A program made the position numbers and the translations under genes. Of a stretch of 64,000 bases of DNA, positions 1-16,562 are shown piece by piece. The notes beneath the pieces were generated by a model that saw nothing but the letters and a program-made list of their open reading frames with translations, made no database searches and was not told the origin of the DNA. Within the stretch, counting starts at the first letter, position 1. Each line of letters opens with the position of its first letter. This stretch comes from Amycolatopsis australiensis (GTDB lineage: Bacteria; Actinomycetota; Actinomycetes; Mycobacteriales; Pseudonocardiaceae), in contig NZ_FPJG01000006.1 of NCBI RefSeq assembly GCF_900119165.1, positions 6,696,001-6,760,000 of the forward strand. Direction: 5' to 3'.

Positions 1-2440
1 CCCAGGTGGTGATCTCACCGTACAGGGAAGCGGCGATGCCGAGGGCCACCGATCCGAGGGACACCTCGCGTCCCTCGGACAGCGTCGAGAGCAACGAATA
101 CCCGGCGAATGCTGCACCGTCGTGGACTAGCGAAAGTCTGCAGCTCGTGCCAGAGCCCGCGCTCCTGATGCGGACGTGGCGGGCGCCGGATCGCAACGCG
201 CGGTCCACCAAGGCGATCAGCAATGTTCCCACGGCATTATCTCCGCCTGCAGCGCCGAGCAGCTCCACGAGTCGCGATCCCGTGGCGATCTCCGTGCTGG
301 TCGGGCGCTTGTCACGCTTCGGTGTGCGCATGCCGTTCGACCGACGGGTCGGACGCTTCGGTGAGGGCACGGGAACGGGATTTGCACCGCCGGCCACCAG
401 ACCTACGTCCGCGAGCTTGTCGCGCAGGTTGTCCTTCGCCTTGCTTTCGATCTGCCGCGCTCGTTCGCGGGTGAACGAGAAGTGCTCGCCGATCTTATCC
501 AGGGTGAGGTCGTCACCACCGTCAAAGCCGAACCGCAACCTGAGCACTTCGGCTTCGCGCTCCTTCAATAGTGACAAAGCTTCCTGCACGAGTTCGGCGC
601 CGAGTTCGCGGTCTACCACGTAGTCGGGGTTCGAGTGGTCCTCGAGCGGAGCGGGGATCAGCTCCGCGAACGAGATCTCGCCATCCATGCCCAAGGGTGC
701 GTCCAGGCTGATCACACCCAAGGACAACCGCAGGCAGTCCACCACCTTCTCCCAAGACAACCCGGTGCGTTTGGCGATCTCTGCGATTGGAGCGTCTTCC
801 TGCTGGAGGAGCAGCCTGTTCCGGACGGTGCGAACTTTGCGGACTTCTTCGTATTTGTGGACCGGCAGCCGGATCATCGCGCCTTCGTCGGGAACTGCTC
901 GGCCCATGTGCTGGTTGATCCAGTTCACCGCGTAGGTGGAGAACTTCAGCCCTCGCGAGCCGTCCCACTTCTCGATCGCCCGCATCAGACCCAACAGCCC
1001 GTGCTGGTGCAGGTCCTCGTAGTCGAGACCGGCACCGAGGTGCTTCGTGATGCAGGAGCCCACGAGGCCGGTGTTGTGCAATACCATGGCGTCGAACGCC
1101 TTCGCCCGCTCGTCAGCGCTGCGCAGCGTTGAGCGAAAGCCTTTGGGCAGTTCCTCCGCGAGATCTTCACCGGTAAGCCGCATCAACTGTGCCAGCCCGA
1201 CCTCCTCCTCCGCCGTCAGCAGGCGTTTCGCGCGGTCCTCGCTCCGCATTGGAGCAGCGAGCACAGCGCGGGCACTGTCGACGGCTGATCGGCTGGGCGG
1301 GGGCAGCTGTTCTGCTGTGGAAGGAGAAGCAGCGAGGTGCCTGGTGGACACCATCTCCACCCACTCGTCGCCGACCGCCTTGCGCGTGCGGTCGTCCACC
1401 AAGGCGGACGGGAGCCCGCTCAAAGCAGTGGGTCGTCCCACACCGGAGTAGGAGAGAAACAACTCCGAGCGCGTCGTAGGGCCGAGCACCCGCAGCGCGT
1501 TCTCGAACCGGAAACGGTCCTCCACCTGGTCGAGTCCCGCCAGCACGACGTGGTCGAACCGCATACCCACGGCGCTGACCCAGGTCAGAACCTTGACTCC
1601 CGGGTCGGATGCGGTAACCGCGGCGTGCCGCGGGACCCTTGCACCGGACAGGTGCCACTGCGTCGTACCGTCGAACAGGTCGCCGATCCCGTCCTTGAAG
1701 ACTTGGACCAATTCGCGGGTCGGCAGCAGCACGCCGATTCGCCGGTCGCGGTGCGCCGTCGCGTGCTCTACGACAAACCGGATCTCCTCGTCGACGTCCT
1801 CGTGGTCCACCAGCACTGGGCGCGGACCTTCACGGCGGGAGACGTCTGTGAGGAAAGATCCATCGCCGAGGCGCTCTAGCAACTGGTCGATCTGCGCGGT
1901 GCCGCCATCGACGTCGTGCGAAGTCGTGGCGGCATCCGCGCCGAGGAGAGCGGTGAGGTCGTCCTGTGTCGTACCGGAGTCTCCGACCGTCTGCACGGGG
2001 TCGACGAATACCGTCGCCTCGATGCTCAGTAGCCGGAGCACCGTGTAGAAGTCGGGCGGCAGCTGCTGCCCTTGGACCACGATGACATGTCGCCGGTCCA
2101 GCGGCCGGACGTAACGGGCCCGGAGGTGCCGCTTGAACTCCCAGAAGTCGACGTCGTAATCGTCCGTCTCCGGTTGCCTCACTCGCAGCACCGTGCGCCA
2201 CATGTCGGCGAAGTAGGAGTGGTAGGTCATCACCGTGTCTCCACGGCTCTCGAACGGCATCATCGTGCGGATGCGGCTCGTCAGCACGCTTGACCGGGTG
2301 ATGACGTGGAGTTCCTTGCCGCTCCCCCGCAAGCGGCGGTAGGCCGTGACCGCCTGGTCCGCTTGATCGACTGCGGGTGCGGCGGCCACCACGGTATGAC
2401 AAGGTGCCTCGTGAACCGGGGCTCGTAACGCGGCGCTCAC
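1..2440 (-). CDS. Degenerate SF1 helicase - sigma-70 - GHKL-like fusion protein (partial, cut by window edge)
   Basis: The frame opens at GTG 2440, inside the drmB stop (GTGA overlap), and stays open for 813 codons to base 1, so the C-terminus is missing. Residues 1-370 follow a UvrD-like pattern: motif Ia-like HVITRSS, a motif II region HVIVVQGQQLPPDFY near 119, and motif V-like VLTWVSAVGMRFDHVVL near 285. The P-loop is absent and the usual DEAQ of motif II reads QGQQ, so ATPase activity looks lost. Residues about 405-675 are a complete sigma-70 factor: region 1.2 (LLTAEEE), region 2 (DYEDLHQHGLLGLMRA, KFSTYAVNWINQHMGR), region 3, and region 4.2 (TRERARQIESKAKDNLR). Residues about 720-813 resemble a GHKL/HATPase fold (LVDRALRSGARHVRI, LVHDGAAF), but the N-box Glu and Asn are not conserved. 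I know no named family with this architecture. It is the fourth gene of the operon. A role in transcription during defence is inference. Confidence 0.85.
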   Translation of the reverse strand, partial: MSAALRAPVHEAPCHTVVAAAPAVDQADQAVTAYRRLRGSGKELHVITRSSVLTSRIRTMMPFESRGDTVMTYHSYFADMWRTVLRVRQPETDDYDVDFWEFKRHLRARYVRPLDRRHVIVVQGQQLPPDFYTVLRLLSIEATVFVDPVQTVGDSGTTQDDLTALLGADAATTSHDVDGGTAQIDQLLERLGDGSFLTDVSRREGPRPVLVDHEDVDEEIRFVVEHATAHRDRRIGVLLPTRELVQVFKDGIGDLFDGTTQWHLSGARVPRHAAVTASDPGVKVLTWVSAVGMRFDHVVLAGLDQVEDRFRFENALRVLGPTTRSELFLSYSGVGRPTALSGLPSALVDDRTRKAVGDEWVEMVSTRHLAASPSTAEQLPPPSRSAVDSARAVLAAPMRSEDRAKRLLTAEEEVGLAQLMRLTGEDLAEELPKGFRSTLRSADERAKAFDAMVLHNTGLVGSCITKHLGAGLDYEDLHQHGLLGLMRAIEKWDGSRGLKFSTYAVNWINQHMGRAVPDEGAMIRLPVHKYEEVRKVRTVRNRLLLQQEDAPIAEIAKRTGLSWEKVVDCLRLSLGVISLDAPLGMDGEISFAELIPAPLEDHSNPDYVVDRELGAELVQEALSLLKEREAEVLRLRFGFDGGDDLTLDKIGEHFSFTRERARQIESKAKDNLRDKLADVGLVAGGANPVPVPSPKRPTRRSNGMRTPKRDKRPTSTEIATGSRLVELLGAAGGDNAVGTLLIALVDRALRSGARHVRIRSAGSGTSCRLSLVHDGAAFAGYSLLSTLSEGREVSLGSVALGIAASLYGEITTW

Positions 2441-4218
2441 AGCACGCTTCCCGGGACACCGTCGACCGTCGCAGCCAGGTCCTTGAAGAACCCGAACTCC
2501 GGGTCGATCAGAAGGCGTCTGTCCAGCAGCCTGTTCATCACCTCGCAGCTCGTCTCCGGGGTCAGCGAGCACGCGTGGCATGCCGCCAGGGACAACCCGT
2601 CCGGTCCCTGACCTGGGTGGTCTGCGCACACGGGATCAAACGAGCACCACACGGCCGAAATGATCGACATGTCGAGGAGCCGACCCAACCGGGGGGACTC
2701 ACCCATCCTGACGAGACCGCCGAGAGTGCCCTCCAAGTCACCAGCTGCAGTGTAAATCAATACCCCGGCCATGGCGGGGCCTTTGCCGCTCTTCGTCACG
2801 TATAGGCGCTCGCGCAACGCGGAAGTCGAGTAGCCAGCTTCGAAGGCGGTGTTGCGCAGGAGCAGGTGTGCGAAGGTATGCAGGAGCACCAAGCGCGGTG
2901 TCGGCTCGGGGAGCCACTTGGCTCCCTTGTCTTTGTGCCGCTCCACCAGCTTCCGGCATCGGTCGATCACTGCGCCTGATCGTTCCCAGTGGGCGAGGGC
3001 TTCTTCGTCGAACCGGAGGAAGAAGCCCTCGCCGAAGACCTCGATCGCTGGCAGGAAGTCGCCGTCGGAACTCAAGTTCGACGGCACCTTCTCCCGCATC
3101 GTGTGGCGCTCGAAGTGCGTCAGCACCCGAACTTCGCGCAGGCGGTCGACCAGTACGACGTCTGCGATCAGTTTCCGCCAGCCGCTCGTCGTCCCTCCGA
3201 CGTCTCCCAACGGACGATCGGCTCTGCGCGAGATGAAGCGATCCCGGTGGTCGTGGTCCTCTTGGGGGTTGATCAGGGCCGCCCACTCGTCCGGACGGAT
3301 GTTCTCCGGACCACCGTCGACGGGAGCGCGCGGATCACCCGCCTCACGAGCCAGTGCCGCCTCGACCTCGGCGACGGAGAGTTTATACTCGTCGGCCGCT
3401 ACCTCGATCATCTGTTTGGCCAGCTTGTAGCTCGGTTGGCCCACCAGGAACTTGAACTCGTTGCTCCTTATCAGCGCCGCCAGCGGGTCGCTGATCGTGC
3501 TCCACGCCGACTCCGGCGGAATATCGATCGCGCTCTCCACCGTGGGGAAGTACACACTCGACGCCCCGCGTTGCATCGCAACCATTTGCTCGGAGCATGC
3601 CGAGGCGTCCCTCGAGCCCTGCCACGGCTGCCTGCCAGAGCATTTGCCGCCAATCTGCTTCAGTCCGATCCTGGTGGTCAATCCGTCCAGGGACTTCTCG
3701 CAGCCGCACGTTCCGCAGCGCACGACGAGCGAGTTAAGGCCGCCACCGACGCCGGTCTTGTTTAGGAACTTCAGCTCCGGCCGCTGGCATTGGTTCTGAT
3801 TCCGGCTGCGGCGAACCGCGGAGTGTGCCCAGCCTGCCCAGTCCACATCCGAGAGGTGCCCGTTGGCGCACACCGCAACGAACCGCATTGGGACGAGCTG
3901 CTTGCGACCGGGGCAGTGTTCACAAGGCGGGGCGGTGTTGGCGACCTCTTTCTTGTACGACCACCGGCTCATGCGCCGGCAGCTTGGACAGAACAGCCAC
4001 TGCGGGAAGCGGAAGTAGGGGATGGGCCAGCGGGGTGAGGGCGCCGCGAGCGAATCCACCTTCAGGTAGGCGGCTAAGCGCGGAAAATCGATGGGCACGT
4101 GCGGGCCGCGCCACTTCCCGGCATCCTCGACCACAAACGACTCACCGACGAGGTCGATGATCGCTCCTGGGCCGAAAGGACTGATGATTTGCGAACGCCG
4201 AACCTTGCGGACCGTCAC
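2437..4218 (-). CDS. drmB: DrmB-like DUF1998 protein
   Basis: This 593-residue protein starts at GTG 4218, inside the stop of the helicase gene (GTGA), which I prefer over in-frame codons further upstream. The N-terminus VRRSQIISPFGPGAIIDL is typical of DrmB proteins. A zinc-binding cluster lies near residues 75-110 (CPSC, CEHC), followed by a CANGHLSDVDW motif. The C-terminal part is DUF1998: HTFAHLLLR near 452 and a Cys-rich CHACSLTPETSCE segment near the end. In DISARM, DrmB pairs with the helicase DrmA to make the core that blocks incoming phage DNA. Here it is sandwiched between drmA and the sigma-fusion gene by overlapping codons, so equimolar expression is likely. The family call is firm; the exact system type is not. 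Confidence 0.88.
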   Translation of the reverse strand: MTVRKVRRSQIISPFGPGAIIDLVGESFVVEDAGKWRGPHVPIDFPRLAAYLKVDSLAAPSPRWPIPYFRFPQWLFCPSCRRMSRWSYKKEVANTAPPCEHCPGRKQLVPMRFVAVCANGHLSDVDWAGWAHSAVRRSRNQNQCQRPELKFLNKTGVGGGLNSLVVRCGTCGCEKSLDGLTTRIGLKQIGGKCSGRQPWQGSRDASACSEQMVAMQRGASSVYFPTVESAIDIPPESAWSTISDPLAALIRSNEFKFLVGQPSYKLAKQMIEVAADEYKLSVAEVEAALAREAGDPRAPVDGGPENIRPDEWAALINPQEDHDHRDRFISRRADRPLGDVGGTTSGWRKLIADVVLVDRLREVRVLTHFERHTMREKVPSNLSSDGDFLPAIEVFGEGFFLRFDEEALAHWERSGAVIDRCRKLVERHKDKGAKWLPEPTPRLVLLHTFAHLLLRNTAFEAGYSTSALRERLYVTKSGKGPAMAGVLIYTAAGDLEGTLGGLVRMGESPRLGRLLDMSIISAVWCSFDPVCADHPGQGPDGLSLAACHACSLTPETSCEVMNRLLDRRLLIDPEFGFFKDLAATVDGVPGSVL

Positions 4219-7200
4219 TTTCGTGCCCCCCTCACTTCGACTTGGACCTCCACATCGACGCTGCGCATCGAGTCGAGCGTGGCCCAGCCGTCCCCTCGGT
4301 CGGTAAATCGCTTGAGCAGTTTGGGGCGCTCGCGCCCGCCCTGGCTGTAGCGCAGACCGCCAGCCGGCTCCGCATCTACTGCCCGCTTCACCCACGTCTC
4401 GATGAGGTCGTTGAGGTGAGCCTCGACCCGCTCCAGTTCGGTTGCGTCGGCTCGTTCGACTCGGCCGAGGAATCTCTTGACGAGCACAGCGAAGCGCTCG
4501 TCGTCGGGGTCGAATGACGCGGCCTCTTGATCACCCGACAGACCGAGCGCGTGGCGCACCAGTACGACCAAGTCTGCGTGAAGGGCGCGCAGGCGCGCCG
4601 GTACCGAGAACGGAGTTACCGAACTCGGCTCGACCGAGCGGTAGAGGCTCGCGTGATAGGGCGTGAACGACTCGTAGTGCGACCGGTCTCGCGGCTTGGA
4701 CGGTGAGTACACCGTTACGACGATGCCTGGACGGTCGGCGCTCCGGCCCACGCGGCTGGTGGCCTGGATGTATTCGGCGGTCGTCTTCGGCTGGCCAACG
4801 ACGGTCATGACGCCGAGACGGCCGACGTCGACGCCCACAGAGATCATATTGGTGCTGGCGAGGAAGGCGACGCCGTCCGACGCGTCGTGCCGTTTCTTGA
4901 GCCGGTCCAGGCGTTGCGGGATCTGTGCTGACGCCACGTTGCTGGTCAGCTCGACCACGTTGTCGTCGTCGAGGTGCCGCACGTGGTCCTCGGCCTGCGC
5001 GATCACCTTTAACCGCGACGGGATGTCGTCAGAGGCGAGGTTGATCGTCTTGCCCAGCTCGCGGAGACTGTTGTGGTAGACGACGAGCGTCGAGTATGCA
5101 TCCTTGGCCGCGGGCGTCAGATCGACTTCGAGTGGCGCCTGCAGCTGCGCTGCAGCGACGTGGATGAGCGCGGTAAGCGGCGTGTGCCCTTGGGGCATAA
5201 CCCCCATGTAGGCACGACCGGGTCGTTCGCGGTCGGTGCTCACGAAGTACGAGTCGGCCGCGTCGACACCCGCCGGCGGGAACAGCGCAACAGGCCGTCC
5301 GAAGACACCCCTGGTCTGCTCGTCGGCCCGGCGAATGGTGGCCGTGGCGGCGACGATCTTGGGCTTGTTGCCCCGATGCGCCATCAGCACGTCGAAAGCC
5401 GCTTCATAGAGGCCGACTATGGTCCCGAGCGGACCGGAAATGAGGTGGAACTCATCTTGGATGATCAGTGACGGACCCGGGTAGGGACCCGCACCGAAGA
5501 ACACGCCGGTGTCTTCTTTCCAGACCGTACGGGCGAACTTGTCGACCGTGCCGACCAGCATGGTGGGCGGGTTCAGGTAGAGGTCTTCGTCCACCGAGGA
5601 CATTGGCAGCTCGGTTCGAAAAGGACATTTGTCGTTAACACACCGCACGCGGAAAGAGTTATTGGTCGCCGAGATGCCCCACCGCTGCTCATCCTCCGGG
5701 CTACCGGGCGTGACCCTGGTACCGCACCACGGGCAGGACTCGATCTGGAAGCCTTGGTCGCTCGCGGTTCCGTCACGCAGCCGTGTGATCAGTCGCCGGG
5801 CCTCTGCGAAGCTGTTGGGGCTGTTATCACCGCCGACCCAAAGGCCAATCGACACGGCGCGGCTGCCGAGCTGCCCCCGGTACTCGGGGTCGTCCCGGCG
5901 CACCCGCTCGCAGGCGGCAATCATGGTCGCGGCGCGCTGAAACTGCTGGCTGGTGAGCAGACGTAGGGTGTACCTGGTGATGACCGTGGTGCCCACTCCC
6001 GCGTCACCCCTGGTCATGCGCCGGTGGAGGATGGTGAACGCCGCGAGCCCGAGGTACGCCTCGGTCTTGCCACCACCGGTGGGGAACCAGATCAGGTCGA
6101 CCAAGTCCCGGTCTTCGCCCTCTTGGACCACGCCTTTCACCGTCATCAACAGGAAGCCGAGCTGGAACGGTCGCCAAGCGTAGTCGAGCGAGTCGTAGTC
6201 GACCGCCGGGTCCGGTGCGTCCGCGGGAGCGTGCGGCGAGCCGCCGAGGTGCGGCTGGCTGTGCGCCATCTGCATGACCATCACGCGGTTGGCCAGCGCG
6301 AACGCCTTGAGTGCAACTTGGTCTTCGCGCAAGAATTCGAGGCCGCCCAGCATGCGGTCCCTGGCACTTGTGGCACGGACGCGCAACCGCTGAGCGGCGG
6401 CCTGGAGTCGCTGGTCAAGGTTCGCCACTGCGGCGTCCCAGGTCTTCGCGATCCAGTCCGAATACCGGTCGACGAAGCCGGTCAGGGCCGCGAACACGGG
6501 CTCAGGATCGGTGGCGATCGCAGCGAGGCCGTTCAGACGGACGGCGTCGGCCACGTCGGGCAGGTCGAAGTCGACGTCGGGCACGACGTGCACAGGAAGG
6601 AACGACGTGCCGACCCACGAGGGCTGGTCGCCGGTCGTGTCCCAGCGGGCGGCCGTCCCGTGGCCGACGGCGTACACCGGCACGTCACGGTACTGGAGTT
6701 CGAGTTCTTCCGCCTCTTCGTCGCTATGTGTCCGTGCCTGGGCCGGATAGCGGATGAGGGTGCCCTCCACGGCCGAGCAGCGCAGGTCGACCTGGAAGAG
6801 CAAGTCCTCTGGGTTCACCGCCCGGCGCTCTTCCTGCACCTTGCGGTTGACCAGGACGGCGGTGACGATCACGCCGTCGGGATGCAGACGCCAGATGACC
6901 TCGACGCTGGCCGCCCCGTTCCAAACCTCCTTCCGCCGGCTCGCCCCGGAGGGTGGAGGCTCAAACAGCAGACCTTCTTCCTCCACGAGGTCCAGCGGTT
7001 CGCGTTGCCACTCGTCGTCCGAGGTGGCCCGGTACTTCCCAGCTCGCACCTCCACCACAATGGCGGACCGCTCCGCGGTCATGAAGCTGATGCCAGCCGA
7101 ACTCGGTCGACTTTGTCCCGCCAGCGTGATGGGGTTCTCGTCGTCGTCTTCGGGTAGTGCCGCCGCTTGATCGTCGACTTCCTCGGCATCATCGGCTGGG

Positions 7201-7385
7201 AAGCTCACATCGGCAGAGGACGGGGTGAGCGACATCGGGTACAGCACGGCGGTCAGGTACCGGTGCTGCGGAGCCCGCTCGTACAGGACCTCGTCCTCGC
7301 CGTCGACCGGACCGACCAGTTGGTCGTGTAGATAGTCGATCACCCGGTCACGGTCCGAGAACCCAGTGGTGTGCAACCTTGTCAC
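4215..7385 (-). CDS. drmA: DrmA-like SF2 helicase
   Basis: A 1056-residue SF2 helicase. It carries a Walker A motif FPTGGGKTEAYL (near 433), a zinc finger (CPWCG near 553 and CVNDKCPF near 585), and a variant motif II IIQDEFHLISG (near 640) with DEFH in place of DEAH/DEAD. Motif III is ATATIR and motif VI is QATSRVGR (near 873). The length and the DUF1998-protein partner downstream match DrmA of DISARM. The first 400 residues lack helicase motifs and contain an acidic stretch (residues about 65-85). ATG 7385 overlaps the stop of the NERD gene (ATGA), and its own stop overlaps the drmB start. DrmA is known as a DNA-binding ATPase; strand polarity and target recognition cannot be read from sequence. 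Confidence 0.9.
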   Translation of the reverse strand: MTRLHTTGFSDRDRVIDYLHDQLVGPVDGEDEVLYERAPQHRYLTAVLYPMSLTPSSADVSFPADDAEEVDDQAAALPEDDDENPITLAGQSRPSSAGISFMTAERSAIVVEVRAGKYRATSDDEWQREPLDLVEEEGLLFEPPPSGASRRKEVWNGAASVEVIWRLHPDGVIVTAVLVNRKVQEERRAVNPEDLLFQVDLRCSAVEGTLIRYPAQARTHSDEEAEELELQYRDVPVYAVGHGTAARWDTTGDQPSWVGTSFLPVHVVPDVDFDLPDVADAVRLNGLAAIATDPEPVFAALTGFVDRYSDWIAKTWDAAVANLDQRLQAAAQRLRVRATSARDRMLGGLEFLREDQVALKAFALANRVMVMQMAHSQPHLGGSPHAPADAPDPAVDYDSLDYAWRPFQLGFLLMTVKGVVQEGEDRDLVDLIWFPTGGGKTEAYLGLAAFTILHRRMTRGDAGVGTTVITRYTLRLLTSQQFQRAATMIAACERVRRDDPEYRGQLGSRAVSIGLWVGGDNSPNSFAEARRLITRLRDGTASDQGFQIESCPWCGTRVTPGSPEDEQRWGISATNNSFRVRCVNDKCPFRTELPMSSVDEDLYLNPPTMLVGTVDKFARTVWKEDTGVFFGAGPYPGPSLIIQDEFHLISGPLGTIVGLYEAAFDVLMAHRGNKPKIVAATATIRRADEQTRGVFGRPVALFPPAGVDAADSYFVSTDRERPGRAYMGVMPQGHTPLTALIHVAAAQLQAPLEVDLTPAAKDAYSTLVVYHNSLRELGKTINLASDDIPSRLKVIAQAEDHVRHLDDDNVVELTSNVASAQIPQRLDRLKKRHDASDGVAFLASTNMISVGVDVGRLGVMTVVGQPKTTAEYIQATSRVGRSADRPGIVVTVYSPSKPRDRSHYESFTPYHASLYRSVEPSSVTPFSVPARLRALHADLVVLVRHALGLSGDQEAASFDPDDERFAVLVKRFLGRVERADATELERVEAHLNDLIETWVKRAVDAEPAGGLRYSQGGRERPKLLKRFTDRGDGWATLDSMRSVDVEVQVEVRGARK

Positions 7386-8953
7386 TGATCTGCCCCCGAT
7401 GCGTCCGGTTTGACCACCCAGAGCGCGGCCTTGGCGCGGGTCATACCCACGTACAACTGGGCGCGCGCTGCCTGCTCGTCCGCCGCGGCGTCCACCTCCA
7501 GAAAGGCGTACCGGCTCTCCAGTCCCTTGAAGTCGGCGATCCGCGCGAACCCGACGCGCCCACGGCCGGGACGGCGCATGCGCATCAGGTCCAGCACGTC
7601 GACCCGCTCAAGCCACTCGACGGGCAGGCCGACGAAGATCGATGCGGCCAGGTCGTGCGGTGACAGCAGCACGACCTGTTCGAGCGGCACGCCGTGCTCT
7701 TCGAGCTCGGCCAAGGCCGCAGCCACTGCGATGATTGCCTTATCGCGCTCCTCCTCGACCACTACGACCTCGCGGCCGTGTCCGGCCGTGGTCACCCCCA
7801 AGTCGGCGCCGGTCCGTTCCTGGGTTGCGCGGACGATTTCGATCGTGTTCCGGCAGTTGTCCATTAGGTCGACGAAGGTGGGTCGGTGCGAGTCGAGCCT
7901 GGCTTTAGCGCGGTCCTCGTAGCGCCCGACCAGTCCACGCTGGTTGTTGGAGTCGAGGAAGAAGGCCCAGCGACCATCGGCCAATCCGCCGAACAGCGCG
8001 CTGTCCAGCACGTCGAGGCTATGCTCGTTTATGACGTCCTGCGCCTCGTCCACCACGACCATGTCGAAGGTGTCCGCACCGAAGGTCGACACCTCGTCGA
8101 ACGGAACTGCGGTAATGCCGTCCAAGTCCTGCTGTGAACGGATGAAGGCTGCCAGGATGTGGCTGTGGCAGGTCAGCAGGATACGTTCGCCGGAGTCTCG
8201 GACACGCCGGCACATCTCCACCGCCAGCATGGTCTTGCCCGTCCCGGCACCGCCCTCGAACACCAGTCGCGGATTCCTCCGATGCTGGTCAAGCGCCTTG
8301 TACTGGCTCCTGGTCAGGGCAACGAGTTCTTTCTCCACCATGTCGTCGAGACGGCGCAAGGACAGCACACGGTCGAAGTCGGGTCGGAGGGCGTTGAGGT
8401 AGCGCTCGACGTCATCGGCGGACAGAGGACCACGGTTGCCCGGCTTTCCCTCCCAGAATGCGCCCAACCGGTCGAGGCAGTCCGCCCACCCCTCGGAGGC
8501 CAGGCGAATCGAGTTGATCACCATTTCCGGGGTCCACTCCACGCTGACCGCGTCGAACTCGCTGTCCGGGAAGACGACTCCGTACCCGAACACCGTGCGC
8601 TCGACCAGCTCCGGGTCGGCGGTGATGCGGCGGAGGACTTTCGCCAAGGCGAACATACTAGTCTGAGCCTGGTCGAGTGGGCTCTCCTTGAGCCGGTGTC
8701 GGTTACCCTTGAGGTCGCGCGTGTGCCACACGTCCTTCTTCAGGAGGATCTCGCCTCCCTTGGCTTCCAGCACCAGTAAGCCGCGTTCACCCAGCAGCAG
8801 GAAGTCGATCTCGCAGACCCGCTTGCGGTCGTGCTCGGGCAGGTTGGTGCTGTGCAGGGCGTATTCCCACCCGGTCACTTCGAGGGCGGCCAGCTGGGAG
8901 AAGATCTCCTGCTCTGCCCGACTGGCACCGGAGTGCACCGATTCCGGAATCAT
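7382..8953 (-). CDS. NERD nuclease-like domain fused to UvrD-like SF1 helicase
   Basis: First gene of the four-gene operon, 523 residues from ATG 8953. That ATG has an AGGTAGG-like Shine-Dalgarno; an in-frame GTG at 8959 is less well placed. The N-terminal NERD domain carries CEIDFLLLGERGLLVLEAKGG-like residues with the D...ExK signature of the PD-(D/E)XK-related fold, so nuclease activity is plausible. A P-loop GGAGTGKT lies near residue 233, Walker B VVVDEAQD near 301, and a C-terminal motif VI-like MTRAK. The SF1 part resembles the DUF2075/UvrD group. Its motifs are intact, unlike those of the related domain in the last gene of the operon. The stop overlaps drmA (ATGA). A role as the DNA-degrading or sensing arm of the system is inference. 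Confidence 0.88.
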   Translation of the reverse strand: MIPESVHSGASRAEQEIFSQLAALEVTGWEYALHSTNLPEHDRKRVCEIDFLLLGERGLLVLEAKGGEILLKKDVWHTRDLKGNRHRLKESPLDQAQTSMFALAKVLRRITADPELVERTVFGYGVVFPDSEFDAVSVEWTPEMVINSIRLASEGWADCLDRLGAFWEGKPGNRGPLSADDVERYLNALRPDFDRVLSLRRLDDMVEKELVALTRSQYKALDQHRRNPRLVFEGGAGTGKTMLAVEMCRRVRDSGERILLTCHSHILAAFIRSQQDLDGITAVPFDEVSTFGADTFDMVVVDEAQDVINEHSLDVLDSALFGGLADGRWAFFLDSNNQRGLVGRYEDRAKARLDSHRPTFVDLMDNCRNTIEIVRATQERTGADLGVTTAGHGREVVVVEEERDKAIIAVAAALAELEEHGVPLEQVVLLSPHDLAASIFVGLPVEWLERVDVLDLMRMRRPGRGRVGFARIADFKGLESRYAFLEVDAAADEQAARAQLYVGMTRAKAALWVVKPDASGADQ

Positions 8954-8995
8954 GCGCACGGTAACCTACCTGCATCGTTACGAGGGGGAAGGGTG

Positions 8996-9013
8996 ATCGA
9001 AAACCTGTTCGAT
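8996..9013. promoter_or_regulatory. Inverted repeat upstream of the NERD-drmAB operon
   Basis: The sequence shows ATCGAA, six bases, TTCGAT, with perfect 6-bp arms. It lies 43 bp upstream of the NERD gene start, where an operator or promoter would sit. The surrounding stretch is more AT-rich than the genome. The binding protein is unknown. Confidence 0.4.
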
Positions 9014-9068
9014 AAATTCAGCGAAGTCCCCCTTGGATCACCTGAGCAGCGGTGCGCAGCCACGCGCG

Positions 9069-9082
9069 AACGATCAATCGTT
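9069..9082. promoter_or_regulatory. Palindrome AACGAT-CA-ATCGTT upstream of the operon
   Basis: A perfect 6-2-6 palindrome lies about 115 bp upstream of the NERD start. It is followed on the minus strand by AT-rich sequence that could hold a promoter. It is a candidate operator for the defence operon; no regulator can be assigned. Confidence 0.35.
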
Positions 9083-9155
9083 GGTTCGGGTGACATAGTT
9101 ACATAATCCAGAAGCGAGCTTTGATCACAGGTGCATATCGGTTCTCCGCAGCCGA

Positions 9156-9361
9156 TCATGAGCACCTTCGAGAGCCCCTGACCTCGCTTTTTGTGTTTGC
9201 GGACTCGACGCTGACCCAAGCGACGTTGGCCTGGATCTTCCGCAGCTCCTAGGTCAGCGCGAACCGCTCCTCGCCACGATCCGCCCCCGGCCACCTTGCT
9301 GCCGCCGGACACAGCCGAACAGCTGATCGACCTCGGGAAGGACCGTCCGCAACTTGACCAC
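9156..9361 (-). pseudogene. Possible decayed small gene
   Basis: The 680 bp between the NERD and HNH genes hold no intact gene. On the minus strand, a frame from GTG 9361 (VKLRTVLPEVDQLFGCVRRQQ) shifts near the G-run at 9285..9295 into a second frame. That second frame reads GADRGEERFALT, an in-frame TAG, then ELRKIQANVAWVSVESANTK, and stops at 9156. The composition of both pieces looks protein-like, which suggests a small gene decayed by one frameshift and one nonsense mutation. I do not recognise the family, and this may be chance. Confidence 0.25.
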
Positions 9362-9638
9362 TTTTTGTCACGTTCCCACCAGACACTTTCCAGTTGGGTG
9401 GAACGACACACCTCGATGCACCCGACTAACCCAGCCCCGCGCTGCGTAGCATGGGCGAGCTCCTCCGAAACTGCAGGGCGATAAAACTTGCGACGCCGAG
9501 AATCTGGAAAGTGGCGAAGTCCTTGAACATGTCCTCGCAGGGAGGCATAGTCAAGCTGGGCACGCCAGCGCGTAGTGCGCCCAGCCTGGCGGGCGCCGCG
9601 ACTGCGACCAGCTGATACAGAGAAACTCCCGGCGATCG

Positions 9639-10916
9639 GTGGCCGGGTTGGCCTGGGAGGCTGATGCGGTGTACGCGCGTGATGATGAGGGTATTGAATT
9701 GAATGCGGAGTTCTCGGTGGTTGCCGACGGCGAGCACCTGAATTTGGTGCTGGAGAGCGCAGGCGGCCGGGCGGCTGGACCTCGTCCACGTAACGACCAG
9801 TATGTGCCCGCGTTGACGTTGCTGCTTGGTCGACTTCGCGACCGACGGGCGGTACTGGTCTCCGGCCTGGTGGCGTCAGCGCGGACCGCCCGCTTGTCGG
9901 AGGAAGCCCGCAGCATCGTCCCGAGTCCGATCCAGTTGGCCGCGGAGCACGACATCAACGAGGTGCGGCTGCAGATCACGCGGGCGCAAGGGCGGGTCGG
10001 TCTGCCGGACGGTGCTGCGAAGGAAGGAAACAACCGGAAGCGAATCGAGCTGCACCTGGATGTTCCGGGTTACGGCCCAGACGACGCTGCACGACTCGCG
10101 GCAGATCTCGCGGTCCCCGCCAAACCGGCCTCGATCGCGGAGCTGCCGCAGGCAGATGAACTGCTCCGAGATCTCACTGGCGAGACGATCCTGACCGTCG
10201 CCGGTCGACAGAACAGGGTGCTCAAGATCGAGAACGGATTCGTGCTGGTGGCTACCGACCGGTCGCCGGAAGGGCAGCCGGTCGCCGTCGCCGACGTACA
10301 GCATGGGCTCGACTTGCTCGCTGAACGGGGCTCGGTCCATGTTTCGGTCAACGAACTCGGTCACCGAAGCGCTTTCGTCGGGGCAGTGCTGGCAACTCTG
10401 CCGCACGCTGACGTCAGCTCGTCGCCTGCGGTGGTGACACTGCAAAGCTCGGCGGTCGAACCCGACCCGGGTGACATCCACTTCGGCGAGCTCGACGCGC
10501 TCGCTCAGGTTAAGGTCCGGACCGAACAGGCAAGACTCCGCCGGCTGCTCGCGGATGGCCGTGACAGCGCGGCGTGCGCATTGTGCGGCGACGAGTATCC
10601 GGTGCGGTTCCTTGTCGCCGCGCACGTGAAGAAGCGCGCAGCCTGTACCGACGCCGAGCGTCGGAACCTACGCGACGTAGCCATGCTCGCATGCAGCTTC
10701 GGATGCGACATCCTCTACGAGTCGGGCTGGGTCACAGTCGACGGCACCGGCCACATCCGGACCGTCGAGGTCGACGGACTCCCGGCCGGGAGCCTGAAAA
10801 CGCGCATAGAACATCTGTCCAGCCGACGCTGCGAAGCCCACGGGCCGGAGTCCGAGCCATACTTCGCCTGGCACCGCACGACCACGTTCCGCGGCCGACT
10901 CGGCAGCCGACCCTGA
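9639..10916 (+). CDS. HNH endonuclease domain protein
   Basis: 425 residues from GTG 9639; no strong ribosome site is visible, so the true start is uncertain. The C-terminal part is an HNH-type nuclease module. It has CALCGDEYPVRFLVAAHVKKR (residues about 310-330, with paired cysteines and the first catalytic His), then a VAMLACSFGCD segment with a second Cys pair. The N-terminal 300 residues are not recognised; they include an SGLVASARTARLS stretch and a conserved-looking IELHLDVPGYGPDDAARLAADL helix region. The gene is transcribed away from the DISARM-like operon across a 680-bp spacer. McrA-like restriction or an accessory effector role is possible but unproven. Confidence 0.65.
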   Translation: MAGLAWEADAVYARDDEGIELNAEFSVVADGEHLNLVLESAGGRAAGPRPRNDQYVPALTLLLGRLRDRRAVLVSGLVASARTARLSEEARSIVPSPIQLAAEHDINEVRLQITRAQGRVGLPDGAAKEGNNRKRIELHLDVPGYGPDDAARLAADLAVPAKPASIAELPQADELLRDLTGETILTVAGRQNRVLKIENGFVLVATDRSPEGQPVAVADVQHGLDLLAERGSVHVSVNELGHRSAFVGAVLATLPHADVSSSPAVVTLQSSAVEPDPGDIHFGELDALAQVKVRTEQARLRRLLADGRDSAACALCGDEYPVRFLVAAHVKKRAACTDAERRNLRDVAMLACSFGCDILYESGWVTVDGTGHIRTVEVDGLPAGSLKTRIEHLSSRRCEAHGPESEPYFAWHRTTTFRGRLGSRP

Positions 10917-12946: not shown

Positions 12947-13113
12947 GGCCCTCCGTTCGACGTCGTGAGTTGATGAAATCAGCCAAACGAATGTCGGACT
13001 CGACGACCAGAGCAGCAGTGCGGCAGTTGTGTGGCGCGTACATCGCACTAGCTGGTCTGAGCTGCGGTTACTGCTGCTACATTGATCTGGTCACGCAGGG
13101 TTGGAGGTCGGTC

Positions 13114-14595
13114 ATGCCCGTAGGGCGACGTCGCGATGGGCTGATCTCAGCTCGTAAGGTCGCGGGCTTCACCCAGGAGGGTCTGGCGGACGTGCTGCAC
13201 GTCGACCGGTCGACCGTTGCTCGCTGGGAGGCGGGCGACTACGTGCCACTCCCCTATCTCTGGCCGAAGCTCGCGAGCGTGCTCGGTCGTTCACGAGACG
13301 AGTTGCAGGCCCTGATCGGTCCGAGCGCCGGCACGCGGGAGTTCAACCCCGACGACTCGTTCGAGCCGGTGTTCACTTGGCTCGATCGGCGTGCCGGGTG
13401 GCCGCTGGGGAGAGCCCGTGAGCAGGTGTACGCGAGCGCAGCCGCCTCATCTCGGAACCGGCCGAATCCGCCGCGAAGCGTCATCGCGGATGCCCTGGCT
13501 GATTACTACGCGCCGCCGACCAGCGACCACCGGCCCTACGTCGCGCGCTGCGGTCAGGTGGAGGTGACCACCACCGTCCTTACGCGGCCGGCTTGGCTGG
13601 ATCTCGCATGCTCGTTGACGCCCACGGGTGAGCACACCGCCTTCGAGGGTGGCAGAGCGAGGCCATCAGCGGTGGTCGATGAGCGAGCTGCGGTGCAGCG
13701 TCTCGCGGACGCAGCAGCGTCCGGCATCCGGATCACTGACGTTCCCCTGTACCGGCTGCTCGAGGTCGACCCGCAGCCTGGAGCGCTGCGGGCGAAGGTC
13801 GGGATCGCGTCGTTCGTCGAGTACGCACTGGGCGTCGACCTGCTGGAACGGGAGTTGATCGAGTACTTGGCGAGCGGCCGCACCGCGCGTCCGGGACACA
13901 TGCCGCTCCGCGATCGCCAACTGCCCGACGTGTCCGCGGTGCTCGATCTACCCGGACGTCTCTGCGCCGGTGGCGTGCTGGCGTTGACAGCGATCGCGCG
14001 GCCGGCGGACCCGTTCCGCGGTGATGCCGACTTCGTACTGTTGGTTCAGACGAGGTCCGCGCAGGTCGTGAACACAGCCGACCGGTTGTCGGTCATCCCG
14101 AAGAGCTTCCATGGGCCGCTTGCGGACCGACGAGCAGATGCCCGGATCGGCGTCACCCTGCGCCGTGAGCTTGAGGAAGAACTATTCGGCAGGACGGACG
14201 TCGACCGGTCCGCCGGGGATCTCAGGGTCGCCGATCCCATGCACCCGACCAGGCTTTCCGCTCCGATGCGGTGGTTGACCGACCAGCCCGGCCGGTTGCG
14301 GATGGAGTGCACCGGGTTCGGGCTCAACCTGGTCAGCGGGAACTACGAGTTCGCCAGCCTGGTCGTGATCGAAGATGAGGCGTTCTGGCCCCGGTTCGGT
14401 GGCGACGTGGAGGCGAACTGGGAGGCAGCGGGGCTACAGCAGTATTCGACGCTCGACGGCGAATTGATCACCGAACTGATCGGTGATGAAAACTGGAGCA
14501 ACGAAGGACTGTTCGCGTTTCTCCAGGGTTTACGCCGCCTCGCCGAGATCGGCGGCGATCGAGTGGAGTTTCCCGCCGTCGAATTAGGTTGCTGA
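13114..14595 (+). CDS. XRE HTH protein with Nudix-like C-terminal domain (copy 1)
   Basis: 493 residues from ATG 13114, with GGAGGT six bases upstream. An N-terminal HTH covers residues about 8-65 (GLADVLHVDRSTVARWEAG). A middle region without known domain follows. The C-terminal domain (about 290-490) contains VIPKSFHGPL and TLRRELEEELFGR, close to a Nudix box (REUXEEXGU) but with Leu where Gly is usual. A long conserved block ECTGFGLNLVSGNYEFASL is shared with the second copy. The gene converges on, and overlaps by 12 nt, the cupin gene. In pSAM2 the transfer-immunity factor Pif carries a Nudix motif, so an immunity or regulatory role in the adjacent element is a reasonable guess only. Confidence 0.75.
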   Translation: MPVGRRRDGLISARKVAGFTQEGLADVLHVDRSTVARWEAGDYVPLPYLWPKLASVLGRSRDELQALIGPSAGTREFNPDDSFEPVFTWLDRRAGWPLGRAREQVYASAAASSRNRPNPPRSVIADALADYYAPPTSDHRPYVARCGQVEVTTTVLTRPAWLDLACSLTPTGEHTAFEGGRARPSAVVDERAAVQRLADAAASGIRITDVPLYRLLEVDPQPGALRAKVGIASFVEYALGVDLLERELIEYLASGRTARPGHMPLRDRQLPDVSAVLDLPGRLCAGGVLALTAIARPADPFRGDADFVLLVQTRSAQVVNTADRLSVIPKSFHGPLADRRADARIGVTLRRELEEELFGRTDVDRSAGDLRVADPMHPTRLSAPMRWLTDQPGRLRMECTGFGLNLVSGNYEFASLVVIEDEAFWPRFGGDVEANWEAAGLQQYSTLDGELITELIGDENWSNEGLFAFLQGLRRLAEIGGDRVEFPAVELGC

Positions 14596-14934
14596 AGGCC
14601 AACGAACGGTCAACACGACCGAATCCGCCAACGCTTCCCAAGAATGGTCAACCCCCGGCCCCCACATCACGTAGTCACCCTGGCGCGTCATAACCTTGCC
14701 GCCGCCGGTGACCTCTACGCGAAACTCGCCAGAGACCAGCATCACCAGCGTCGTTCGCTGGTCGTCGGAGGTCCACGCGGGGCGCTTGTCCCCCGCAGGA
14801 TGGTTGGCCCACTTGACTTCGACGTCCTTGGAGGCTCGGACGCCCTGCGACGGGTCGATGAAGTGGCCGACCAACCAGCCGCGCGTATCGGCCGCGTCTT
14901 CGTTGGCGTTGCCGGCGGTCCAACCGTCGCTCAC
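14584..14934 (-). CDS. Cupin-fold small protein
   Basis: 116 residues from GTG 14934, which overlaps the stop of the upstream XRE/Nudix gene (GTGA); ATG 14949 is an alternative giving 121 residues. The core shows a cupin barrel pattern: LVMLVSGEFRVEVTGGGK, then YVMWGPGVDHSWEA, ending with VLTVRWPS. The single DHSWEA His and lack of the full metal triad suggest a binding rather than catalytic role. It is translationally coupled to XRE/Nudix copy 2. It may sense a ligand for that regulator; this is inference. Confidence 0.75.
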   Translation of the reverse strand: MSDGWTAGNANEDAADTRGWLVGHFIDPSQGVRASKDVEVKWANHPAGDKRPAWTSDDQRTTLVMLVSGEFRVEVTGGGKVMTRQGDYVMWGPGVDHSWEALADSVVLTVRWPSAT

Positions 14935-16493
14935 TGGCCTATCTCCCATTCGATCGCGGGCAGTTTCACGCGCTCTCCGCCGATTCCCGCAAGGCGCCGA
15001 AGCCCTTGCGTCATGGCGAACAGTCCTTCGTTGCTCCACGCTACATCACCCAACAACTCGGTGACGAGTTCCGCATCAGTAGTTGAATACTGACGAAGAG
15101 TCGCAGATTCCCAGTTGGCTTCGACCACTCCCCCGTAGCGTGCCCAGAATTCTTCGTCGTCGATGACGATCAGGCTGGCGAACTCGTAGTTTCCGCTCAC
15201 GAGGTTCAGGCCGAACCCGGTGCACTCCATCCGTAGGCGGCCGGGTTCGGCGAGGAGCCAGCGCATCGGTTCCGTGAGCCTGGTCGGGTGCATCGGGTCC
15301 GCGGTCAGGGTGTCGGCGACGGTGTTGTCAGCGTCCGGCCGGCCGAACAGCTCTTCTTCCATCTCTCGGCGCAGGGTGGCGCCGATCTGGGTTTCTCGCC
15401 GGACGTCGGTAAGCGGCTGGTGGAAGCCCTTCGGGATGACGGCCAACCGGCGCGTGGCGTTGAGTACGTGGCCGGAGCGTTCCTGGACCAGCAGCACGTA
15501 GTCCGCTTCGCCGCGGTACGGGTCAGCCGGTCGAGCAATGGCCGTCAAGGCGAGGGCTCCCCCTGCGCAGAGTCGGCCGCCGACGTCCAGGACGGCGCCG
15601 ATGTCTGGGAGGTAGCGATCACGCAGGGGCAGCGACGTCGTGTCGCCGGCCGCGAGCGCGTCGAGCAGCTCGCCTTCGAGCAGGTCCATCGTCAGGGCGT
15701 AGTGGACGAAGTGGTCCACGCCGAACGTGCCGCCGAGGTGGCGTTCACTGATGTCCGTGCTCAGCAGCCGGTAGAGCGGCGCGTTCATGAGCCGGGTGTT
15801 CATGGCTACCGTCTCGGCGAGCCGGTTGACCGCTGCCTTCGTCGCGTGCTCGTCCAGGACTTCCCGCGGGTCTGGTCGGGCGCTCGCGATCGTGAGCCCG
15901 TCGTGCGGCGGGCGTAGTTCGCACGCCAGGTCGAGCCAATCAGCGCAGGTCAGGACGCTGGTGTTCACAGCCTGGTCACCGCAGCTTCCGGCGTACAAGC
16001 CGTGGTCACCGTGGCGTCGGCCGTAGTACTCGGCAAGTGCGTCGGTCACGGCGCGCTGGTCGACCCACGCGCGGCGAGTGGCCCGGGCGTACGCCTCCTG
16101 CGCGTCGACGCGAGCGGCCTGCGCGGCGACGGCGCGGCGTGCGGCACCAGGGCTTCGGTAGGCGTGCTGGTCGAGCCATTCGAGAGCCGCGCCGATGTGG
16201 GGATCCGCGGCCAGTCGTCGATCGGCTTCCTTCGTGTCGGGCCTGGTATGAGCGGCCAGCCCGCCGCCGGTCAGCTCGGCGAAGCGGGCTCGCTCGGCGT
16301 CGGACGCCCGTTCATACGCGGTGTCGAGGACCTGCTGCATCTCCGACTGCGGGCGAAGGTCCGGCTTCTGGTGCCAGGACGCGACCGTACGCGCACCGAT
16401 TCCGAGCTTTTCGGCGAATTTCTCATTGCTCAGCCGCAAGGCGGATTGCAGCGCCGACGCTGAACGTCCGGTCCAGCCACCTACCCCGCTCAT
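14931..16493 (-). CDS. XRE HTH protein with Nudix-like C-terminal domain (copy 2)
   Basis: 520 residues from ATG 16493. The N-terminal HTH (ALRLSNEKFAEKLGIGARTV) differs from copy 1. The C-terminal half is clearly paralogous to copy 1, sharing the LCAGGALALTAIARPADP region, VIPKGFHQPL, TLRREMEEELFGR and the ECTGFGLNLVSGNYEFASL block. The Nudix-like box lacks the canonical Gly. The gene is co-transcribed with the cupin and faces copy 1. Two near-identical 15-bp repeats lie 33-69 bp upstream, a probable autoregulatory site. As with copy 1, a link to element immunity or regulation is inference. Confidence 0.75.
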   Translation of the reverse strand: MSGVGGWTGRSASALQSALRLSNEKFAEKLGIGARTVASWHQKPDLRPQSEMQQVLDTAYERASDAERARFAELTGGGLAAHTRPDTKEADRRLAADPHIGAALEWLDQHAYRSPGAARRAVAAQAARVDAQEAYARATRRAWVDQRAVTDALAEYYGRRHGDHGLYAGSCGDQAVNTSVLTCADWLDLACELRPPHDGLTIASARPDPREVLDEHATKAAVNRLAETVAMNTRLMNAPLYRLLSTDISERHLGGTFGVDHFVHYALTMDLLEGELLDALAAGDTTSLPLRDRYLPDIGAVLDVGGRLCAGGALALTAIARPADPYRGEADYVLLVQERSGHVLNATRRLAVIPKGFHQPLTDVRRETQIGATLRREMEEELFGRPDADNTVADTLTADPMHPTRLTEPMRWLLAEPGRLRMECTGFGLNLVSGNYEFASLIVIDDEEFWARYGGVVEANWESATLRQYSTTDAELVTELLGDVAWSNEGLFAMTQGLRRLAGIGGERVKLPAIEWEIGQ

Positions 16494-16525
16494 TGCTGCC
16501 CCAAAGCGCTCTTGTGCAGCGGATA

Positions 16526-16562
16526 TGCAGTGGTTGCGCACTGCTTCTGCACTGGTTGTGCA
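16526..16562. promoter_or_regulatory. Two 15-bp direct repeats upstream of XRE/Nudix copy 2
   Basis: TGCAGTGGTTGCGCA (16526..16540) and TGCACTGGTTGTGCA (16548..16562) differ at two positions and start 22 bp apart, about two helical turns. The second has palindromic TGCA ends. They lie just upstream of the copy 2 start and are probably an operator pair for its HTH domain. Confidence 0.5.

Follow-up and report, generated by a model that had tools for sequence, protein, structure and literature searches.

The closest described counterparts of the locus analyzed here are the defense systems DISARM and Mza. As described in the available part of PMC9142583, a trigger loop keeps DrmAB autoinhibited, and single-stranded DNA and 5' overhangs are bound by DrmAB. 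In the corresponding part of PMC9523054, mzaA is reported to encode a sigma factor, and in that of PMC10924106 mzaA is merely listed among variable genes. A sigma factor in defense is thus already on record as MzaA and is not itself new. The DNA analyzed was a stretch of 64,000 nucleotides from Amycolatopsis australiensis (NCBI RefSeq assembly GCF_900119165.1, contig NZ_FPJG01000006.1, positions 6,696,001 to 6,760,000), termed the window. At its left edge lies a gene, termed the fusion, for a protein that joins a UvrD-like domain, a sigma-70 factor, and a MORC-type GHKL domain. This protein is almost certainly the fused protein of an actinobacterial drmAB defense subtype in which a sigma-70 factor is a regular extra part. 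The identity part of this explanation rests on sequence, structure prediction, and comparison, and the mechanism is one that we infer.

Comparison with DISARM and Mza

The operon reads in the order NERD-helicase, drmA, drmB, fusion, and AIPR, followed by a gene for a 5-methylcytosine (5mC) methyltransferase. GTGA overlaps link the operon genes, and the fusion is joined in this way to both of its neighbors. The genes ahead of the fusion are as follows.

7382-8959, minus strand: NERD nuclease-related domain and UvrD-like helicase, first gene of the operon; Pfam NERD 7.9e-10, UvrD_C_2 1.1e-6
4215-7385, minus strand: drmA (helicase); PADLOC DrmA 4.1e-207, NCBIfam DrmA 891.2 bits, just under the cut-off of 950
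2437-4218, minus strand: drmB; NCBIfam DrmB_fam 428.3 bits, cut-off 240; start placed by the GTGA overlap with drmA

The locus resembles DISARM in that drmA adjoins drmB, with the DrmB (DUF1998) match above its cut-off, and in that a 5mC methyltransferase is present. The original prediction of a phage-defense-type operon with drmA and drmB was borne out by these two genes, which stand directly ahead of the fusion. The methyltransferase matches PADLOC DrmMII at 2.7e-75, yet general MTase_II models score higher. The window operon differs from DISARM by the addition of the UvrD-like part, the sigma factor, the GHKL domain, the AIPR protein, and the NERD-helicase. For DrmC, no PLD match was found with Pfam and no DrmC match is shown by PADLOC among the six operon proteins, the methyltransferase being covered by 25 of its 60 PADLOC matches.

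The likeness to Mza lies in the sigma part, the GHKL part, and the AIPR protein, which are homologues of MzaA, MzaB, and MzaE, respectively. The sigma part alone, rather than a full-length MzaA, matches the NCBIfam MzaA model (named "MZA anti-phage system associated sigma-70 family RNA polymerase sigma factor") with 208.6 bits against a cut-off of 800. The MzaA profile matches primary sigma factors in 218 of 296 genomes of the phylum and in 8 of 14 control genomes and is therefore unfit to find MzaA. The GHKL part matches PADLOC MzaB at 6.4e-18 over profile positions 132-352 of 500, with the ATP motifs of an MzaB ATPase lost, and the AIPR protein reaches 349.8 bits, far below the NCBIfam equivalog cut-off of 1050. 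No MzaC or MzaD was seen among the six window operon proteins in the Pfam and PADLOC scans. Unlike Mza, the window has the MzaA- and MzaB-like parts fused and the GHKL motifs lost. The locus L087 of genome G223 carries MzaB, MzaC, MzaD, and AIPR homologues with a 5mC methyltransferase and drmA/drmB, and shows no sigma match.

The claim that no described protein has this architecture holds for the three-part fusion as a whole, which is absent from the literature searched, and fails for its sigma and GHKL parts, which are MzaA and MzaB homologues. That literature, available in part and covering few subscription journals, likewise held no drmAB-sigma link and no loss of ATPase motifs with fusion. 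In the accessible portions of DISARM papers that name drmA, drmB, and "sigma factor", no link is drawn between them. In the main text of a YprA-family helicase study (PMC12458937), as far as available, "sigma" occurs twice and is a supplier's name both times.

Architecture of the Fusion

The reading frame runs on to the left of base 1, and the whole fusion gene (L004:14285-17440, minus strand in the window) encodes 1,051 residues. The parts that fall within the window are listed below.

1-2440, minus strand: fusion gene HEL-SIGMA-GHKL, codons 1-813; about 716 bases further left of the window to the stop-codon end
1376-2407, minus strand: UvrD-like superfamily 1 (SF1) domain, residues 12-355; Walker A and motif II lost
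371-1240, minus strand: sigma-70 factor, residues 401-690; regions 2-4, region 1.2 below threshold
1-295, minus strand (start only; rest outside the window): MORC/MzaB-type GHKL domain, residues 716-1051

The fusion is a real protein composed of the three parts listed. The architecture originally predicted is confirmed by the single reading frame and by 39 of the 67 listed homologues, which are near full length. Sigma regions 2, 3, and 4 each exceed the Pfam gathering scores, and the sigma part gives 146.1 bits with a SigA from the PDB, near the housekeeping sigma factors. The factor had been predicted to be complete from region 1.2 to region 4.2; regions 2, 3, and 4 agree with this, and region 1.2 scores 13.2 bits against a Pfam cut-off of 22. 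The N-terminal part has the UvrD-like SF1 helicase fold with neither Walker A nor motif II, as anticipated for an inactive domain. The expected GHKL-like C-terminus is the MORC/MzaB-type domain, which has the MORC/GHKL ATPase fold and lacks the N box, G1, and G2 motifs.

A Foldseek search with the whole fusion model listed 50 rows, sigma chains only, and the GHKL C-terminal part was therefore modeled separately. An ATPase-plus-transducer fold, shared with the MORC/GHKL ATPases, spans 289 residues of its predicted structure. With HelD and HelR, the UvrD-like RNA polymerase recycling motors, the fusion shares the fold and weak profile matches only.

Association of the Sigma Factor with One drmAB Branch

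The DrmB search of 394 genomes of the class gave a match in 59. A set of 67 drmB loci (L091-L157) was chosen by DrmB alone; the loci of G000 and G223 are outside this set, and two further pieces of broken drmB genes fall within loci already in it. The loci reach about 9 kb out from drmB in either direction and less at contig ends, so that a more distant sigma gene would escape. Loci L055, L058-L061, and L068-L074 were found via the fusion or its parts and are biased towards sigma.

A sigma-70 factor is present in 14 of the 67 loci, and the UvrD-like part in all 14 (tblastn). Once the match of the window itself is set aside, these loci rank first to fourteenth among the DrmB matches. The other 53 loci are all negative by the tblastn measure, including L157, which alone has fragments of sigma, UvrD-like part, and drmB together and looks decayed. 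In five of the 14 loci a single open reading frame comprises the UvrD-like part, sigma, and a GHKL end that is shortened; in the remaining nine the UvrD-like part and sigma are apart, with the sigma gene divergent from drmA or ahead of it.

The DrmA tree has 80 rows, of which 27 have sigma; 13 of the 27 came in by other routes and are hence biased. On this tree the presence of sigma requires one change. The branch uniting the 27 sigma rows and locus L105 has a support of 100. No sigma was found at E 0.01 within the 20 kb of L105, and this locus was rejected as an overlooked sigma locus on that ground. The 14 fused rows also require one change, on a branch with a support of 2; a single fusion event may have occurred and is compatible with the tree at that support. 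An AIPR protein and a 5mC methyltransferase are present in all 14 fused loci on the tree, and no AIPR was found at E 1e-10 in any of the 13 separate loci within stretches of limited length. The possibility of an ordinary sigma factor with chance neighbors was ruled out by the association in 14 of 67 loci and the one-change tree. Judged by these sequence comparisons, the sigma factor is a regular extra part of one actinobacterial drmAB branch in the genomes sampled.

Plasmid loci, each taken with 9-10 kb of flanking sequence, were scanned for sigma at E 1e-4. Two of the five viewed (four being non-actinobacterial), from Deinococcus and Photobacterium, have drmA-drmB-UvrD-like without a sigma match, which narrows the idea that the UvrD-like part marks sigma loci only. 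After these three genes lie proteins of 576 residues (L169:16197-17927, Deinococcus) and 483 residues (L170:15097-16548, Photobacterium) with no Pfam match at E 0.05. A Methylorubrum plasmid (L057) contains an unannotated sigma match; the open reading frames scanned there gave none, probably from a wrong frame.

Fused and Separate Homologues

The protein search listed 67 homologues from 8,000 scored candidates, and 39 of these span at least 85% of the fusion. Near-full-length fused homologues come from many sources and have identities of 39-96%. Among 100 genomes (its own and 99 relatives), the full fusion is found in four, namely its own and three others at 88, 92, and 96%. The N-terminal part occurs in 6 of 397 genomes of the order, fused in three (the window, G693, and G471) and separate in three (G535, G655, and G458), where the UvrD-like genes encode 367-369 residues. 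In G535 and G655 the three parts are separate genes of one drmAB and Mza-like locus, the ATPase motifs are kept, and MzaC and MzaD homologues lie beside drmAB. No relative of the fusion was found in the viral contigs searched.

The original prediction was to fall if homologues were split at the junctions or if an assembly error had fused neighboring genes. Homologues split in this way do exist in G535 and G655, yet they belong to the same drmA/drmB locus and stand beside the 39 fused homologues; the split thus marks the origin of the fusion and not an artifact. An assembly or annotation error that merged neighboring genes could draw on the separate genes of some relatives. It was ruled out, its likelihood being negligible, by the near-full-length fused homologues in one frame, the GTGA links on both sides, and ratios of nonsynonymous to synonymous substitution (dN/dS) well below 1 in each domain. 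By homology, the fusion is a joining of three proteins that relatives encode apart: a UvrD-like ATPase beside drmB, an MzaA-like sigma factor, and an MzaB/MORC-like GHKL ATPase.

GHKL and sigma-70 modules also occur together in one chain in reverse fusions from Microbacterium and its kin. Both Pfam domains appear in 72 of the 120 hits listed (of 6,220), and the named sources are Microbacterium, Curtobacterium, Clavibacter, Leifsonia, Agromyces, and Cryobacterium.

P0069, P0075-P0119, and P0121-P0146: GHKL and sigma-70 proteins, apparently in reverse order; order checked in P0069 and P0119 only

These proteins differ from the fusion in the opposite order of the modules (P0069 and P0119), in GHKL motifs that are kept in P0069, and in that no UvrD-like part was seen. 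A survey of the family in 149 genomes gave four GHKL matches, and no reverse fusion was found in the loci read afterwards. In precomputed Pfam assignments, sigma-70 domains also share a protein with ankyrin repeats or with DEAD/ResIII helicase domains (P0066, P0070, P0071, and P0073; P0152 and P0161).

Loss and Retention of Motifs

The ATPase motifs divide the fused from the separate proteins. Each of the 12 separate UvrD-like proteins keeps both Walker A and the DE of motif II. Of the fused rows that cover these motifs, none of 39 keeps Walker A and none of 47 keeps the DE, in a table with 49 fused rows overall. The GHKL motifs are kept in all six non-fused or reverse-fused rows and in none of the 47 fused rows, five of which are of a Frankia type in which the GHKL ATPase core is missing. 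Fused proteins shorter than 900 residues were left out of both tables, L093 and L095 also out of the GHKL table, and the frame-broken UvrD-like gene of L103 out of the UvrD-like table. All counts are of rows and not of independent events, and some may be one gene twice (the motifs of L093 and P0055 are identical).

Residues of the sigma part were numbered, and their roles assigned, as in E. coli sigma-70, where we take Q406 to bind core and R584/E585/R588 to read the -35 element. All 56 fused rows retain Q406, W434, and the triad R584/E585/R588, and 55 retain Q437. Among the separate sigma genes, Q406, W434, and the triad are kept in 12 of 13, with the broken L102 as the exception. For the sigma count, the sigma genes of L075 and L076 were taken without their copies in L068 and L069. 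The triad, in region 4.2, is the same as in housekeeping sigma factors, which favors broad promoter contact over an operon-specific or private regulon.

The dN/dS values among six relatives are 0.09-0.27 for the UvrD-like part, 0.14-0.24 for sigma, and 0.18-0.25 for GHKL; that of the 30-residue linker 691-720 is 0.55-1.79. Both ATPase domains are, by this measure, under purifying selection despite their lost motifs. The low values indicate that the dead domains are maintained, most likely as scaffolds.

Upstream Region and Neighboring Genes

A conserved block was found ahead of the operon.

9071-9130, minus strand: conserved block, possible promoter or operator, about 112-171 bases upstream of the first start of the operon

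By eye, the block is clear in seven of nine aligned loci, partial in L072, and absent in L071. Its 20-base core has one occurrence in the genome at up to three mismatches. A dyad of the GTGA-N7-TCAC type lies within the block in some relatives and is imperfect in the window.

These data bear on the proposal of the original prediction that the sigma part is a dedicated transcription factor, driving the defense operon or a host response once the flanking domains or partners sense infection. The block with its single core, the retained residues taken to bind core and DNA, and the sigma genes divergent from or ahead of drmA in the nine separate-gene loci all speak for it. The block is not conserved in L071, though, which bears the same fusion, and the DNA-contact residues are of the housekeeping type, so that a private promoter would not be expected. 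A strict TTGACA/TATAAT consensus scan of 8950-9400 found no promoter, a weak result since shuffled sequences averaged only 0.1. We consider this proposal somewhat unlikely.

Other genes were observed nearby. An 865-residue open reading frame with Mrr_cat and nSTAND3 lies to the left of the window on the opposite strand (L004:7489-10086; PADLOC PDC-S73 1.9e-123), and a 94% copy of it adjoins the fusion operon in L073. A 425-residue frame at 9639-10916 of the window is divergent from the operon and has a C-terminus that is HNH-nuclease-like by eye. Two related frames of 541 and 536 residues (12970-14595 and 14931-16541) are on opposite strands, their C-terminal halves being alike by eye.

Possible Role of the Sigma Part

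The likeliest mechanism, which we advance tentatively, is that the fusion acts as an adaptor between the drmAB machinery and RNA polymerase or promoter DNA. Its sigma part would dock on host RNA polymerase and sigma-A-type promoter DNA, and the two dead ATPase domains would serve as fixed arms by which DrmAB and the AIPR protein are held. When promoters open on unmethylated DNA that enters the cell, they would provide the single-stranded DNA that DrmAB binds, and the 5mC methyltransferase would mark self. Defense might then be guided by transcription: the built-in sigma would bring the drmAB helicase to RNA polymerase and to promoters that have opened on the entering DNA, viral transcription would mark the target, and single-stranded DNA would unlock DrmAB. 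This last proposal is rather unlikely. Identity and adaptor mechanism together make the best explanation as a whole, one that is plausible while short of probable.

Several findings weigh against this explanation. Some copies are decaying, the sigma gene of L102 (one of the 14) being broken after region 2 and the UvrD-like gene of L103 being frame-broken. The branch that parts the sigma loci from the rest has a support of 0 because L105, without sigma, is placed unsurely beside them. The Deinococcus and Photobacterium plasmids suggest that sigma is dispensable for the existence of a drmA-drmB-UvrD-like core. The HelD resemblance of the UvrD-like part is unspecific, UvrD and SLFN11 tying with HelD, and other UvrD-type models match the separate relatives as well as HelD or better. 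Residue 407, an E in both host sigma factors, is E in none of the 56 fused rows, and position 433 holds W in just 16 of them; these changes may affect core binding or promoter melting. The upstream block with a core found once in the genome runs counter to broad promoter contact.

Two further roles were weighed. The sigma part could be a guard or decoy. By resembling the sigma factor of the host, it would lead phage proteins directed at sigma, whether to attack it or to take its place, to bind the defense complex as well and trigger it. Its nearness to housekeeping sigma factors while the flanking parts have lost enzyme motifs, and the recurrence of sigma or sigma-4 modules in other architectures, would fit this role, which is improbable. 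The change of residue 407 in every fused row would suit a mere DNA-binding module that acts without RNA polymerase, as would an Mza-like locus (L167) with a 1,002-residue frame that has alpha-CTD and sigma-region-4 matches and no region 2 at E 0.01, and the SIGMA-HTH-like domain that BrxL carries (PMC12839542, available part). Region 2, including glutamine 406, is nevertheless kept in all fused rows and would be needless for such a module, which makes this role quite improbable.

Implications

In some drmAB loci, sigma is fused to two ATPases whose motifs have vanished while sigma is intact, which amounts to a natural experiment on dispensable parts. It also offers a second way to test MzaA, the unexplained sigma factor of Mza. 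Should the sigma part indeed tie defense to RNA polymerase, transcription of the invader would be a signal for target recognition, a principle not found in the literature searched, as far as it was available. Sigma factors as regular partners of one drmAB branch hint at a defense that is plugged into the transcription machinery.
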